Source of the DNA: a virus | Direction: 5' to 3' (one strand) | Virus record (IMG/VR): IMGVR_UViG_3300021478_000028 | Location: 1 to 64,000 of that record | Length of the DNA stretch: 64,000 bases | Translations under genes and position numbers: made by a program | Notes under the pieces: model-generated | Told to the model about the DNA's origin: nothing | Database searches by the model: none | Seen by the model: only the letters and a program-made list of their open reading frames with translations | Shown: positions 4,149 through 31,311 of the stretch, piece by piece | How positions within the stretch are numbered: position 1 is the stretch's first letter | How the letters are laid out: each line of letters opens with the position of its first letter

Positions 4149-4916
4149 TTAAGGCCGCTGGCTTTCCTTCCACGCCTTGGACAAGTTCTCATAGCTGTCC
4201 ACCGCACAGATCGTGCGCTGGTTTTCGGTAGCCCACGGCCACCGCGGCACCTGCGCGCCGGGGTACTGCGTCATGAAATAGATGAACGGAACCCGGCTGA
4301 ACATGGCCATTGCCACCGGGCCGTTCGACACGAAGAAGTTCATTTTGGCGCACTGGTACAGCCCCATCCTCACATCCAATTTGAGCGAGGCGTCTGGGCA
4401 AACGAGAAAATCTTCGAGTGGTTCTCTGGCCTTGGCTGTATCGCGCACGAAAATCACCCGCTCGCCCTTGCTGCACAGATCGACTGCAAACTTTTTCCAT
4501 TCCCGCAGGTTGCTGTTGCGATGCGGCCAATACAGGACTTCCCGCAACGTGATAACTACCGGCGACTGTCCGACAGGTACTCCAATGTGGTCTACATGCA
4601 GTCGCGGCACCTCCTCGCCCCACCTGGCCGCTGCCGCGATCTCATTCAGGAAAAGTTCAACCGACAAGAATAGCGGCTTGAATGGCAATTCGCCATTCTC
4701 GCTCTCGTCCTCCACGGCGTCGATCATGGGCAGCAGTGGACGAAATACGTTGTTGAGCCACGCTTCCGCCTTTGCGCTATCGACATTTATGAACCTAATC
4801 CGCAACGGTGCGGGCGCCTTATGCCGCTGCCTGGCCATTTCCGCATGGATCAGCCAAATCAAAAACTCGAAGCTCAGGGGATTCGTGGCGAGGTCGTACT
4901 CGAAAAGGTTATTCAT
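4149..4916 (-). CDS. Putative GT-B-like glycosyltransferase
   Basis: 255 residues from MNNLFEYDL; the start is fixed by a TGATG overlap with the upstream gene. The C-terminal half has the alternating strand/helix pattern of a GT-B nucleotide-sugar-binding domain, including KGERVIFVRDT, then a region with CAKMNFFVSNGPVAMAMFSRVPFIYF, which resembles the 'seen but powerless to move' Gly-containing donor-site loop of heptosyltransferase-like enzymes. The N-terminal half is less recognisable. It is the last gene of a four-gene island (two other putative glycosyltransferases, one methyltransferase, one small protein) inside the virion operon. The substrate is unknown; virion or host-surface glycan are both possible. 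Confidence 0.5.
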   Translation of the reverse strand: MNNLFEYDLATNPLSFEFLIWLIHAEMARQRHKAPAPLRIRFINVDSAKAEAWLNNVFRPLLPMIDAVEDESENGELPFKPLFLSVELFLNEIAAAARWGEEVPRLHVDHIGVPVGQSPVVITLREVLYWPHRNSNLREWKKFAVDLCSKGERVIFVRDTAKAREPLEDFLVCPDASLKLDVRMGLYQCAKMNFFVSNGPVAMAMFSRVPFIYFMTQYPGAQVPRWPWATENQRTICAVDSYENLSKAWKESQRP

Positions 4917-5587: not shown

Positions 5588-5745
5588 TTCTCATCGAGAG
5601 GCTTCGACGCTTCGACAATTTTATACCCGGCAACCTCCAAATCATGCAGCACGGCATAGGCAAGACCAGTGGCGTCCACCAAATTTGGGGCGGCCCAATC
5701 TCTAAGTGCCTGCTCAACTCGCTCTCGAATTGTCATCGGTGTCAT
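5584..5745 (-). CDS. Short helical protein in the sugar-transfer island
   Basis: 53 residues, MTPMTIRERVEQALRDWAAPN, then a Val/Ala/Leu-rich helix and an acidic/basic end (SKPLDEK). Both ends overlap neighbours by ATGA, so it is clearly a translated link in the operon. The second ATG (5734-5736) is an alternative start. No known domain. Confidence 0.65.
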   Translation of the reverse strand: MTPMTIRERVEQALRDWAAPNLVDATGLAYAVLHDLEVAGYKIVEASKPLDEK

Positions 5746-7703
5746 CCGTCTAGAAACTTCGCGACTTCGTCAGAGAAAAGCCTGGCTATCCTGGCCTCAC
5801 AGTCACGCACCCCGTAGGAGACTACCAACGAGCCGTCCATTGCTCTAGCCAGACCCATCGCATACTCGATCTGGCGATCGTGGAAAACAAATGGCCTGGA
5901 GAGCGCAGTCAGTTTGCCATGCAGGTCGATAACAGCGAATCGGTGCGAATAGTATCGCTTTCCGTTCCATGGATTAGGCCGCGCCTCGTGCACCAGGCCG
6001 AGCCAGCCGGACTCGAACGGAATGAATTGCGTTCCCCCGCCGATGTGGTTGGTAGCAAGCTTGGGAACTTCCTCAAGGACCTTCTGGCCTTCGGCATCGA
6101 TTATGGTGCCCAGCCGATAGACCCATTTCGCGCCCCTCCACGGCGCCCAGCTCTTCTCATGCTGTTTCTGCCAGCTCGGGATGACCTTCCACCAATCGGC
6201 GATGCGGTTACCCACAAGCTGGCCGACAATTTGTTCACACCACCCTTCCGGGTTCATCTCGCGCACGCAGGATGAGAACCAGATGCCGCTCCCGCTGGGA
6301 AACAAGCGCATGTCCTCGAAACCGCGCACGGCACCCCATTGCGGAGCAGGCATGTTGATGGGGTCGTGGATCTCCAGTTGCGATAGCCACGCCATATCCT
6401 TGGACAACCGCACCAGAAAATTACGAGTTACGATGGGATTGTCCGGGCCTAACTCGGCGTTGCCGTGGATGGCGTAGTGCCCGCTCTCGGTGATCTCATA
6501 GTTCACCGTGCGCACGATCGCGATGAAGCCGTCCCCGTCGCGCGCGATGGTTGGATTCATCGCCTTCCAGTCGTCATTGACATCGAACGGGAGCGGCTGC
6601 GAGGAGAAGCGCATATACTCCGACAACGGCCGCAGATAGTGGAACAGGTTGGTGCGCGCCTGCTCGCGGGTAACCTCAGGAGCCTCACGATCGAGCGCCA
6701 GGGCATCGCATTCACGGAAGGCCTCCGCCCGGGTTTCCGGCTGATAGAAGCCGGAGATCGAAAGCTCCTCGCGCAGCCCAAACCGGTAAACGAAGTCGGA
6801 AACGAACAGCGCATCCTTACTGTACGGAATTTTCATTCCCGCCAGCGTAAAATGCGTGGCCAGCATATGATTGCCTTGCTCACGGAAGTACTTAGCCAGA
6901 TCATAGAGCGTCTCGGCGCGCGATGGCCGCAGGTTCCAGGCCAAAAGCATCTGGTGGACGAACTTGGATTCGTCTCCCAGGCTCAAGACGCAGAAGGCAT
7001 AATTGTAGAGCGCATTCCACCTCTCCTGGTCCCAGCCACCGAGTTCCACGCACCGGGCATAGGCTTTGGCTGCATTCTCCCAGTCGCCGGAATCGCGATA
7101 GGACTGACCAAGGTAAAACCAGTAGCGTGTATTGTTAGGCTCGGTCTCCAGCACTTCGCGCAGCAACTTGATATCGCGTTCGAACTTTCCTGGCCGGTTG
7201 GCCCCGTCGGCATGATCGATGAAATACGGCCCCTCTAAAGCCTCAGATTGACTTTCGTCCAGATATTCATGCACCGGACTCAGGTATCGTGCTTTTGATT
7301 TACGATTTAACAGGCGCCGGTTCCAGTAATGGAGTCCGCCGGCTCGCTGCTGCATATCGTAAGACGCCACCCCTCTGGCAATACTTCGCTCAAAGGCATC
7401 CCGATCGGGAACCACCAATTCCATATCGGCATCTGATAAAACCAAGTAGTCGAATCCCAGACGAGATTCACGCGCAAGATCGAGAGCAGCATTCCTGGAT
7501 TGGGCAAAATCATGAAAGGCCACATGGCCCACCTCTAATGGCTTGTTGGCACCGTCGAAGCAACGCTGAATAATGCGGACGGTGTCGTCCGTTGAACCCG
7601 TATCCGCCACTATGCCACAATCGATATACGGCAGCAGGCTTTTTACGCACCGCTCTATAATCGCGCTTTCATTTTTAACTATGGCGTTCCAGGCGAGCTT
7701 CAC
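5742..7703 (-). CDS. Fusion: GT2 glycosyltransferase + TPR + GH130-like beta-propeller
   Basis: 653 residues. Residues ~1-180 are a GT2 (GT-A) domain: NAIVKNES at the start, the nucleotide-binding DTGSTDDT at ~34-41 and the metal-binding SDADMEL at ~90. Residues ~190-320 are TPR-like helices (YWFYLGQSYRDSGDWENAAKAYARC). Residues ~380-653 look like the five-bladed propeller of GH130-type mannoside phosphorylases and relatives: NPTIARDGDGFIAIVRTVNY, GFEDMRLF, GGGTQFIPFESGWLGLVHEA, YSHRFAVID, YAMGLARAMDGSLVVSYGVRD. GT2+TPR combinations are common in bacteria; the C-terminal propeller makes this unusual. It could transfer and trim or recognise the same glycan. GT2 certain, propeller likely. Confidence 0.75.
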   Translation of the reverse strand: MKLAWNAIVKNESAIIERCVKSLLPYIDCGIVADTGSTDDTVRIIQRCFDGANKPLEVGHVAFHDFAQSRNAALDLARESRLGFDYLVLSDADMELVVPDRDAFERSIARGVASYDMQQRAGGLHYWNRRLLNRKSKARYLSPVHEYLDESQSEALEGPYFIDHADGANRPGKFERDIKLLREVLETEPNNTRYWFYLGQSYRDSGDWENAAKAYARCVELGGWDQERWNALYNYAFCVLSLGDESKFVHQMLLAWNLRPSRAETLYDLAKYFREQGNHMLATHFTLAGMKIPYSKDALFVSDFVYRFGLREELSISGFYQPETRAEAFRECDALALDREAPEVTREQARTNLFHYLRPLSEYMRFSSQPLPFDVNDDWKAMNPTIARDGDGFIAIVRTVNYEITESGHYAIHGNAELGPDNPIVTRNFLVRLSKDMAWLSQLEIHDPINMPAPQWGAVRGFEDMRLFPSGSGIWFSSCVREMNPEGWCEQIVGQLVGNRIADWWKVIPSWQKQHEKSWAPWRGAKWVYRLGTIIDAEGQKVLEEVPKLATNHIGGGTQFIPFESGWLGLVHEARPNPWNGKRYYSHRFAVIDLHGKLTALSRPFVFHDRQIEYAMGLARAMDGSLVVSYGVRDCEARIARLFSDEVAKFLDG

Positions 7704-20326: not shown

Positions 20327-20358
20327 AAAAAAGGGTGCACCTCACGTGCACCCTTTTT
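20327..20358. terminator. Bidirectional intrinsic terminator
   Basis: AAAAAAGGGTGCAC-CTCAC-GTGCACCCTTTTT: perfect stem with A-run on one side and T-run on the other. It isolates the minus-strand accessory genes from the control region and plus operon to its right. Confidence 0.9.
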
Positions 20359-29369: not shown

Positions 29370-29567
29370 TCACTGCTTTTTCCCGTACACGATCTCGCGC
29401 CCCTGCTCGAACGGCCCGATTGGCCGGCCGTATTTGGCCGTCATCTCCGCATACGACTGCCCCTCGGGCGGGTGCAACTCCCGCTTGAACCCCGGCCGCG
29501 CTCGCTTGAGCCACGGGTACTCGTCGGTGAATGTAGTCCTGCGTTGCCAGTATTCGCCGTCGCTCAT
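29370..29567 (-). CDS. Small protein, unknown
   Basis: 65 residues, MSDGEYWQRRTTFTDEYPWL, ending PIGPFEQGREIVYGKKQ. The start overlaps the upstream gene's stop (ATGA). No family recognised. Confidence 0.6.
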   Translation of the reverse strand: MSDGEYWQRRTTFTDEYPWLKRARPGFKRELHPPEGQSYAEMTAKYGRPIGPFEQGREIVYGKKQ

Positions 29568-29785
29568 TTCTTCCTCCGCATTTTCTCAGCAATGATCTCC
29601 GCCTCCGAGGGGCCGTTCATCTTGCGGTGCTCGCGCATGGCGCGATTGTAGAACGCATTGATGCTTTCACGCGGCCTGTGAATATCCCGGGCAACGCGCG
29701 AGGGCTCGACAATCAGCGTCTCCCCTCTGCGCTCCGCATAATACCACCACGCCGCCTCTTGCCAGTTGGGATCGTTCCAGCTCAT
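29564..29785 (-). CDS. Small Trp-rich protein, unknown
   Basis: 73 residues, MSWNDPNWQEAAWWYYAERRGE... with a central PSRVARDIHRPRESINAFYNR that could be a helix-turn-helix. First gene of the minus-strand set; the hairpin at 29811-29830 lies just upstream. Confidence 0.6.
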   Translation of the reverse strand: MSWNDPNWQEAAWWYYAERRGETLIVEPSRVARDIHRPRESINAFYNRAMREHRKMNGPSEAEIIAEKMRRKK

Positions 29786-29810
29786 TGGCTTCCTTCTTCG
29801 TCGCGTCCCC

Positions 29811-29830
29811 GGCTGACCTAACGGTCAGCC
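29811..29830. promoter_or_regulatory. Perfect palindrome upstream of a small-gene operon
   Basis: GGCTGACC-TAAC-GGTCAGCC, 26 bases before the 29785 start; operator or leader hairpin. Confidence 0.5.
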
Positions 29831-29871
29831 TCTGAGCTTCACGGATAGAACCTTTCGTTTAATCGCTTAAG

Positions 29872-29909
29872 CCGCCGCCCACGGGCTGTTTAATTGCCCG
29901 GGGCGGCGG
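29872..29909. other. Very stable 14-bp hairpin
   Basis: CCGCCGCCC (29872-29880) with GGGCGGCGG (29901-29909) and inner CGGGC (29882-29886) with GCCCG (29896-29900). Between the palindrome and the structured-RNA promoter; insulator, terminator or part of a leader. Confidence 0.55.
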
Positions 29910-29956
29910 AGTCCTGGTGCTGCCTAGAGTATCCAACTGACTGCTGGAGCTTTCTG

Positions 29957-29985
29957 TTACTTACCTTTCTTCTATTGGCTATAGT
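29957..29985 (+). promoter_or_regulatory. Candidate sigma-70 promoter of the structured RNA
   Basis: TTACTT (29957-29962), 17-base spacer, TATAGT (29980-29985). Start would be near 29992. Confidence 0.5.
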
Positions 29986-29991
29986 GCTTGC

Positions 29992-30450
29992 TTAGGACAC
30001 GACCCCCCAACCCCCCGCGGAAATGATCGGATTTAGCTGCCCGCCCTTTCCCGATTTTGTCGAGGGATTGGCGGATCATCCGGTTTCCACAAGGGACCGC
30101 GCAATGTGTGGTCGAGCCATTGGCCCAGTCAGCCCACGCGGTTTCGTTGGGGGATCGTCCGAGCCGGCACCTGGCAATCCAGGTGTCCTCATCCGAGGAG
30201 GCCCGCACGTGACCGGTCTATAACCGCATCCGGTCGGGGAAACCCCTACCCTACGGAGGCAATTACGCGCCCATTGACACTGCTGTAGGAAACCGCTTTG
30301 GATGCTGATGACCAGCGCGCCTACAGCTCGCGTTGGTCTCAGGGCTCACGTTCCGGCAAAAGATCGTGGGCCTTCTGGTGTCCCTGGTCCAGATCCCAGG
30401 TTGACGCCTCGCCCGGCGGGCTCCTCCAAGGCCCGACCGGGCTTCTTTTT
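29992..30450 (+). ncRNA. Candidate large structured RNA
   Basis: No convincing gene in either strand, but dense pairing: CACCTGG/CCAGGTG (30168-30185), CCTC/GAGG (30187-30198), GACCGG/CCGGTC (30211-30235), GGGG/CCCC with GAAA-like AAA loop (30236-30246), GCTGTAGG/CCTACAGC (30282-30289 with 30320-30327) enclosing GCTG/CAGC, a 10-bp helix AGGGCTCACG/CGTGGGCCTT (30341-30350 with 30365-30374), CCTGG/CCAGG (30383-30400), then a terminator hairpin with T-run ending at 30450. A promoter-like pair lies upstream. I do not recognise it as a known RNA family; GOLLD/ROOL-type phage RNAs are the conceptual comparison. Confidence 0.55.
30411..30450 (+). terminator. Intrinsic terminator of the structured RNA
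   Basis: GCCCGG-c-GGGC (30411-30421) pairs with GCCC-ga-CCGGGC (30431-30442), followed by TTCTTTTT. Confidence 0.75.
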
Positions 30451-30481
30451 CTGCCTCCAGGCGAAGCCAGTCAAGGACTTT

Positions 30482-30599
30482 CCGCAACGCTCCACATCCC
30501 TGAGGAAATTCGGGAGGGGACCGATCCAGGTACCCCCTCCCCAGGCTGAAATGATACACTGGATCGACATACCAGCCTGCTAGGCCGCAACGCTCCACA
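30482..30599. repeat. Direct repeat pair at the 3' end of rusA
   Basis: CCGCAACGCTCCACA at 30482-30496 and at 30585-30599. The right copy encodes the last codons of the resolvase; the left lies in non-coding DNA downstream, so it is a remnant of a partial duplication or a binding site. Confidence 0.5.
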
Positions 30600-30987
30600 C
30601 CCTCACGAGCACGCCTTCCGGCGCCTCGCCCCTGGTAACCGTCAATTTACGCAGGAATTGGCGGCTGTCCCCCTGCACCAACTCGATGTTCACCAAGTAG
30701 TCCAAGAGGCTCTTTAGGACGTTGTCGATGTCGTGCCGAACCTTCTCCGAAAGGACGACGTGCACTGCATAGGGGCCGGCGATCTTCGGGCAGTTTTTGC
30801 GCTGCAACATGACATGCTGATCGGCTCTCCGCGCCCAGGCTTCGTGCTTGGTCTTCTTGGCCAAATCGATCTTGCGGGTCTCGTTCACCGAGGGCGGGCA
30901 CGGCAGGTGCAGCTCGATCCGGGGCTGGGGTTGGTCCTCGGATGCCTTCTCGGCCCCCCTATCGTCCACGTACACGCCACCGCTCAT
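30580..30987 (-). CDS. rusA: RusA-type Holliday junction resolvase
   Basis: 135 residues from MSGGVYVDDRG (GGGG six bases upstream; alternative start at 30999). ELHLPCPPSVNETRK is the N-terminal RusA motif and VRHDIDNVLKSLLDYLVN carries the two catalytic Asp residues of the D-x-D-N-x-x-K signature; VQGDSRQF follows as the third acidic station. Cuts recombination intermediates and branched DNA before packaging. In the neighbourhood of exonuclease and ERF genes. Confidence 0.85.
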   Translation of the reverse strand: MSGGVYVDDRGAEKASEDQPQPRIELHLPCPPSVNETRKIDLAKKTKHEAWARRADQHVMLQRKNCPKIAGPYAVHVVLSEKVRHDIDNVLKSLLDYLVNIELVQGDSRQFLRKLTVTRGEAPEGVLVRVWSVAA

Positions 30988-31008
30988 GAGTACCCCCATG
31001 GAAAGACC

Positions 31009-31311
31009 CTAGTCAGGCGCCGAGGCCCCCGCTGAAAACCCTATCCTTCGCCGCCGTTTGCGCGGCTTTGTCGGGGTTTGCGCCGCCAGCAGGTCGCGCA
31101 AGTGGATGGAAATATCCAGCTTGGCGCCCTCTTCGATGATGCGTGCCCAGTGCCGCGAGGTGATTCGGCCCTTGCGCTTCATCTCGCTGGCCGCCTGTTG
31201 CTGCACGCCGATCGCGCGGGCGAACGCGCTCACGCCGCCAAAGGCGCGCATGATCGACGACACCGTCCAGGGCAAATCCTTGGGATGGCTGTTTCCCGAG
31301 CGCTTCACCAA
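31009..31311 (-). CDS. Cro/CI-like helix-turn-helix regulator
   Basis: 100 residues. IMRAFGGVSAFARAIGVQQQAASEMKRKGRI has the classic helix-turn-helix (AFARAIGVQ, then QQAASEMKR as recognition helix), followed by SRHWARIIEEGAKLDI, like phage XRE repressors acting on single half-sites. Arg-rich tail KPRKRRRRIG. Start codon is TTG or the following GTG. Divergent from the 31480 gene, so it may control both. Confidence 0.7.
   Translation of the reverse strand: MVKRSGNSHPKDLPWTVSSIMRAFGGVSAFARAIGVQQQAASEMKRKGRITSRHWARIIEEGAKLDISIHLRDLLAAQTPTKPRKRRRRIGFSAGASAPD

Follow-up and report, generated by a model that had tools for sequence, protein, structure and literature searches.

To our knowledge, only a few large RNAs of the GOLLD and ROOL kind are known from phages, none of them with a known function, so that any further class would be valuable. 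Lambda OOP is a terminated antisense phage RNA of about 77 nt that overlaps its target, cII. GOLLD members are often more than 800 nt long and situated near tRNA islands, a context that is frequent but not obligatory, and the solved example of ROOL, a class that is also often found near tRNA islands, has 659 nt (PMC12286853). The DNA analyzed here, referred to as the window, comprises 64,000 nucleotides and covers all but a small part of a virus record of 64,115 bases (IMGVR_UViG_3300021478_000028, positions 1 to 64,000). A first-pass annotation of this DNA had proposed an unrecognized large structured RNA recalling GOLLD and ROOL in a gene-free stretch near 30 kb.

The candidate resembles GOLLD in being phage-borne, long, and situated in a gene-free stretch, and it resembles ROOL as a putative phage-borne noncoding RNA of several hundred nucleotides. 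However, at about 455 nt it is shorter than both, no tRNA gene was found by ARAGORN in the 64-kb window, and neither GOLLD nor ROOL gave an Rfam score, even at E 10, in positions 29700-30700 or 29980-30460. No Rfam family matched at gathering either, and the suggested likeness to GOLLD and ROOL was not upheld by the covariance model search. Across the proposed transcript, the Rfam family scoring highest on the plus strand was Atu_C7 (RF02501), a Rhizobiales sRNA, with 16.2 bits and an alignment spanning the 3' third (30294-30447; E 0.14-0.29, not significant). Both RNAs finish in a GC-rich terminator, but the score is far under the Atu_C7 gathering score of 45, and the weak matches to HCV_ARF_SL, Atu_C7, and sX13 were judged to be due to chance. 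Like OOP-type RNAs, the candidate would be a terminated phage transcript opposing neighboring genes of a regulatory region; unlike the ~77-nt OOP, which overlaps cII, it has about 455 nt and ends before the neighboring gene.

Gene-free interval and transcription signals

The first-pass annotation had described about 460 bases with no convincing gene. The absence of a gene was confirmed, and the gap itself proved to be larger, extending over 794 bp (29786-30579) between two minus-strand genes. On its right lie genes for a RusA-like Holliday junction resolvase (30580-30999, minus strand; PHROG 34, E 2.3e-12; Pfam RusA above cut-off) and a Cro/repressor-like regulator (31009-31311, minus strand; PHROG 35; weak Pfam P22_Cro). 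On its left, the next minus-strand operon begins with a gene (29564-29785; coding score, +4.4) to which no function was assigned and which heads a minus-strand run of small genes, also without assigned function, from 29785 down to 28071; plus-strand genes upstream of the interval reach to about 27.98 kb. Coding scores came from a frame-specific Markov model of simple design, for which the long genes of the same phage served as the training set. None of the six frames of the interval carried a coding signal, all of its ORFs scoring from -3.7 to -11.6 bits per 100 nt, below every other ORF tested; small neighboring ORFs were mostly positive (up to +7.5), with some of unassigned function slightly negative. 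No PHROG or Pfam domain was detected when all six frames were translated with stops read through, and a pseudogene, which was considered as well, was not seen, as these frames gave no family match. An 18-bp direct repeat (94% identical) occurs at 30482-30499 and 30585-30602. The second copy takes in the final codons of the RusA-like gene, and the repeat may be a trace of local duplication or recombination at the 3' end of that gene. Two very stable hairpins without a T-run (29811-29830 and 29872-29909; local fold z of about -5) lie in the stretch from the promoter-like site described below to where the minus-strand operon begins.

The promoter-like TTACTT-17-TATAGT that had been reported upstream of the candidate is indeed present (29957-29985, plus strand; pattern match and weight-matrix scan), and its -10 element is good. 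The site is nevertheless weak: the -35 element, TTACTT, agrees with TTGACA at 2 of 6 positions, and the site ranks 92nd of 3393 in the weight-matrix scan, about 90 sites in the window scoring better. No other match to TT-N21-TATANT exists in the window, where 1.43 would be expected by chance. Ranks 12 and 23 in the same scan are taken by sites near 31.4 kb, in the presumed immunity region.

The GC hairpin with a T-run noted at the end of the stretch was substantiated. All hairpin-plus-T-run candidates on both strands of the 64-kb window were scored, with three 64-kb shuffles as the control, and the strongest was a predicted intrinsic terminator at 30411-30448 on the plus strand, consisting of a 12-bp stem with one bulge followed by TTCTTTTT (-25.4 kcal/mol, compared to -20.9 for the runner-up, near 20.3 kb, and -20.0 for the best candidate in the shuffles). 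The runner-up is a near-perfect hairpin, GGGTGCACGTGAGGTGCACCC, at 20329-20354, with A and T runs on its flanks, and would act as a bidirectional terminator. The loop of the 30411-30448 terminator exposes CCTCC, the complement of the Shine-Dalgarno sequence GGAGG. Promoter-like site and terminator lie on the same strand, 430 nt apart, and together they hint at a transcription unit, short of proof. With its start placed from the -10 element and its end from the terminator, the proposed noncoding transcript would run from 29992 to 30448 on the plus strand (about 455 nt). Within it, 30196-30223 reads AGGAGG-7-GTG ACC GGT CTA TAA, a Shine-Dalgarno-like motif followed by a four-codon mini-ORF.

Predicted fold and search for relatives

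The plus strand of 29990-30455 folded to -210 kcal/mol (z = -4.43 versus dinucleotide shuffles), a value as low as which was reached by none of 100 shuffles. Among 64 windows of coding sequence from this phage (mean, -0.63; standard deviation [SD], 1.12), 2 attained a similar z, and the lowest fold z among 460-nt windows genome-wide was -5.7. With the terminator region included, the opposite strand gave a z of -3.75; with the terminator removed, the plus and minus strands gave -3.07 and -3.25, respectively, and the body of the RNA thus shows no strand preference, while its fold energy is still about 2.4 SD under that of the coding windows of this phage. Local 120-nt z-scores, computed for about two thirds of the windows, were not exceptional. 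The "at least eight helices" of the first-pass annotation fared unevenly, in that the listed stems do appear in the minimum-energy fold but the count of long stems is near the shuffle level: stems of 7 to 10 bp were about as many as in shuffles, with 8 Watson-Crick stems of 7 bp versus 5.95 expected and 6 stems of 10 bp, counting G-U pairs, versus 3.7. Likewise, of the proposed large structured RNA, a fold below shuffles was retained, and strand specificity and Rfam likeness were not. The claim of structure is therefore modest, not strand specific without the terminator, and softer than it first appears.

Several plus-strand elements are predicted with high pair probability. A 5' domain (29999-30158) is closed by CCCCCAAC/GTTGGGGG (30004-30011/30146-30153; inverted repeat I2), the 8-bp core of which has a pair probability of 1.00. 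It is followed by the hairpin GGCACCTGG-CAAT-CCAGGTGTC (30166-30187; 0.92-0.95) and by a 10-bp hairpin, GACCAGCGCG/CGCGTTGGTC (30310-30338; 0.97). A possible pseudoknot or switch (30282-30327) is suggested by the perfect 8-nt complementarity of GCTGTAGG (30282-30289) to the loop sequence CCTACAGC (30320-30327), a pairing that would compete with the stem 30250-30256/30283-30289.

DNA homologues were sought by distant blastn against phages, plasmids, and E. coli genomes, in the whole records of about 90 related viral contigs, and, with local blastn and nhmmer, in related loci totaling 2.5 Mb; only short matches of 14 to 37 nt, at chance level, were returned. Three short DNA matches were inspected; none resembles the candidate RNA, and one lies inside a collagen-like repeat gene. 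Back-translated 24-mers, searched in three frames in IMG/VR and in one frame in GTDB genomes, gave a single match, in contig L211, which was rejected as a homologue because it lies inside an unrelated protein gene and its local alignment scores are below those of shuffles. Single-sequence covariance models of two domains gave nothing better than E 0.14 against the relatives, and with neighboring genes as bait (rusA, exonuclease, AAA ATPase, and the left operon) the RNA was present in no relative found. These negative results do not prove absence, as records very close to that of the window may have lain outside the searches. In the two relatives inspected around rusA, other minus-strand genes directly follow this gene, which suggests that the segment either was gained by this phage alone or evolves beyond recognition. 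A gap that lacks genes and faces an opposing terminator was also sought among relatives; one in contig L183 looked alike but was rejected as a counterpart, since it holds minus-strand ORFs and has an ordinary fold (z = -1.43).

Possible orphan transcript or transcription boundary

The best explanation, to which we assign a probability of roughly 0.45, is that the interval carries an orphan noncoding transcription unit of about 455 nt on the plus strand of a soil podovirus and that the transcript is probably a regulatory RNA. The unit is plausible from the 794 bp without a coding signal, the window's best terminator, the promoter-like site 430 nt upstream of it, and the fold z of -4.43; against it stand the weak promoter, the absence of a homologue-based signal of selection, and the strand-neutral structure without the terminator. 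Moreover, because the unit opposes the flanking minus-strand genes, it would be neither their leader nor their terminator. The dedicated phage transcript proposed by the first-pass annotation is thus plausible in its lack of a gene, its terminator, and its opposed orientation, and the weakness lies in the promoter. Transcription by the host RNA polymerase would begin near 29992, at a weak promoter of sigma-70-like type, and yield an untranslated plus-strand RNA of about 455 nt, and the strong terminator at 30448 would stop the polymerase before it ran antisense through rusA and the Cro-like regulator gene. The RNA might then pair with mRNAs, for example via CCUCC in the terminator loop, which is a reasonable guess given that CCUCC is complementary to Shine-Dalgarno sequences.

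A plain insulator without RNA function is nearly as likely as a transcript. The strong plus-strand terminator at 30411-30448 could simply mark a transcription boundary, keeping stray plus-strand transcription from reading rusA and the regulator gene in the antisense direction, and the rest of the interval could be promoter and leader of the minus-strand operon starting at 29785, a leader to which the two strong hairpins at 29811-29830 and 29872-29909 would then belong. We regard this arrangement as possible; the stray transcription would be read-through from the plus-strand operon ending near 28 kb, plus-strand genes being present upstream to about 27.98 kb. A weak promoter-like site and a helix count near chance are consistent with a boundary, but 450 to 790 bp is more than an insulator needs, and the fold energy of the body, about 2.4 SD under coding windows, also speaks against it. 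The interval may hold a real structured RNA or just a folded-looking spacer.

We consider it unlikely that the interval encodes a large ornate RNA of elaborate fold and GOLLD- or ROOL-like action (self-assembling, high-copy) from an unrelated family. A gene-free stretch in a phage, a global fold that beats 100 of 100 shuffles, and one possible loop-stem pseudoknot would suit such an RNA; yet GOLLD and ROOL have no Rfam score at E 10, tRNA genes are absent from the window, the candidate is shorter than either class, long helices number near chance, strand asymmetry is absent without the terminator, and the homologue searches came back empty. Those empty searches would agree as well with debris of mosaicism, in which case the stretch separating rusA from the next operon would be a gene segment that has decayed or been replaced and is without function today. 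A mosaic early region would agree with it too, as would the direct repeat at 30482-30499/30585-30602, read as a local duplication around the end of rusA. Debris is about as unlikely as an ornate RNA: no frame gave a family match even with stops read through, and decay would not put the genome's best terminator there. Returning to the orphan transcription unit, it is similarly improbable that its ~455-nt RNA constitutes a new class of elaborately folded phage noncoding RNA, perhaps containing a pseudoknot switch and known so far from a single soil phage. Its present value is that of a single, unsupported candidate, a marked coordinate to revisit once a phage relative or a transcriptome appears.

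Phage genome and its mosaic relatives

In its portal protein, the phage shares 55% identity with Rhizobium phage RHph_TM27A and, among the matches listed, 57 to 72% identity with about 80 viral contigs. Kinship to the Rhizobium phage points to alphaproteobacteria as the likely host. Head, portal, and terminase genes are common to 15 long contigs of the portal-related group, 8 of which also have a single gene located near 39 kb, but no early gene in the region from 14 to 38.9 kb is shared with these 15. Relatives of the early genes fall elsewhere: the AAA ATPase and two downstream genes occur in one set of contigs, and the exonuclease occurs in another set, sometimes with RusA-like, annealing, or endolysin genes. 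Such separate relatives for the early genes and for the head, portal, and terminase genes indicate that the phage genome, early region included, is a mosaic. Among the head genes is a 653-aa gene (5742-7703), the N-terminal half of which matches a phage beta-1,4-glycosyltransferase family. A 42.6-kb contig from an Acidobacteriaceae MAG (L222), probably a phage contig binned with that MAG, carries ATPase, exonuclease, and RecT-like genes in the same order as in the early region of the window. In the related viral contig L183, positions 4750-4900, downstream of a terminator, contain a long palindrome, GGGGGTCTCTCTCCC...GGGAGAGACCCCC, along with several repeats resembling CTGCGCCAG.
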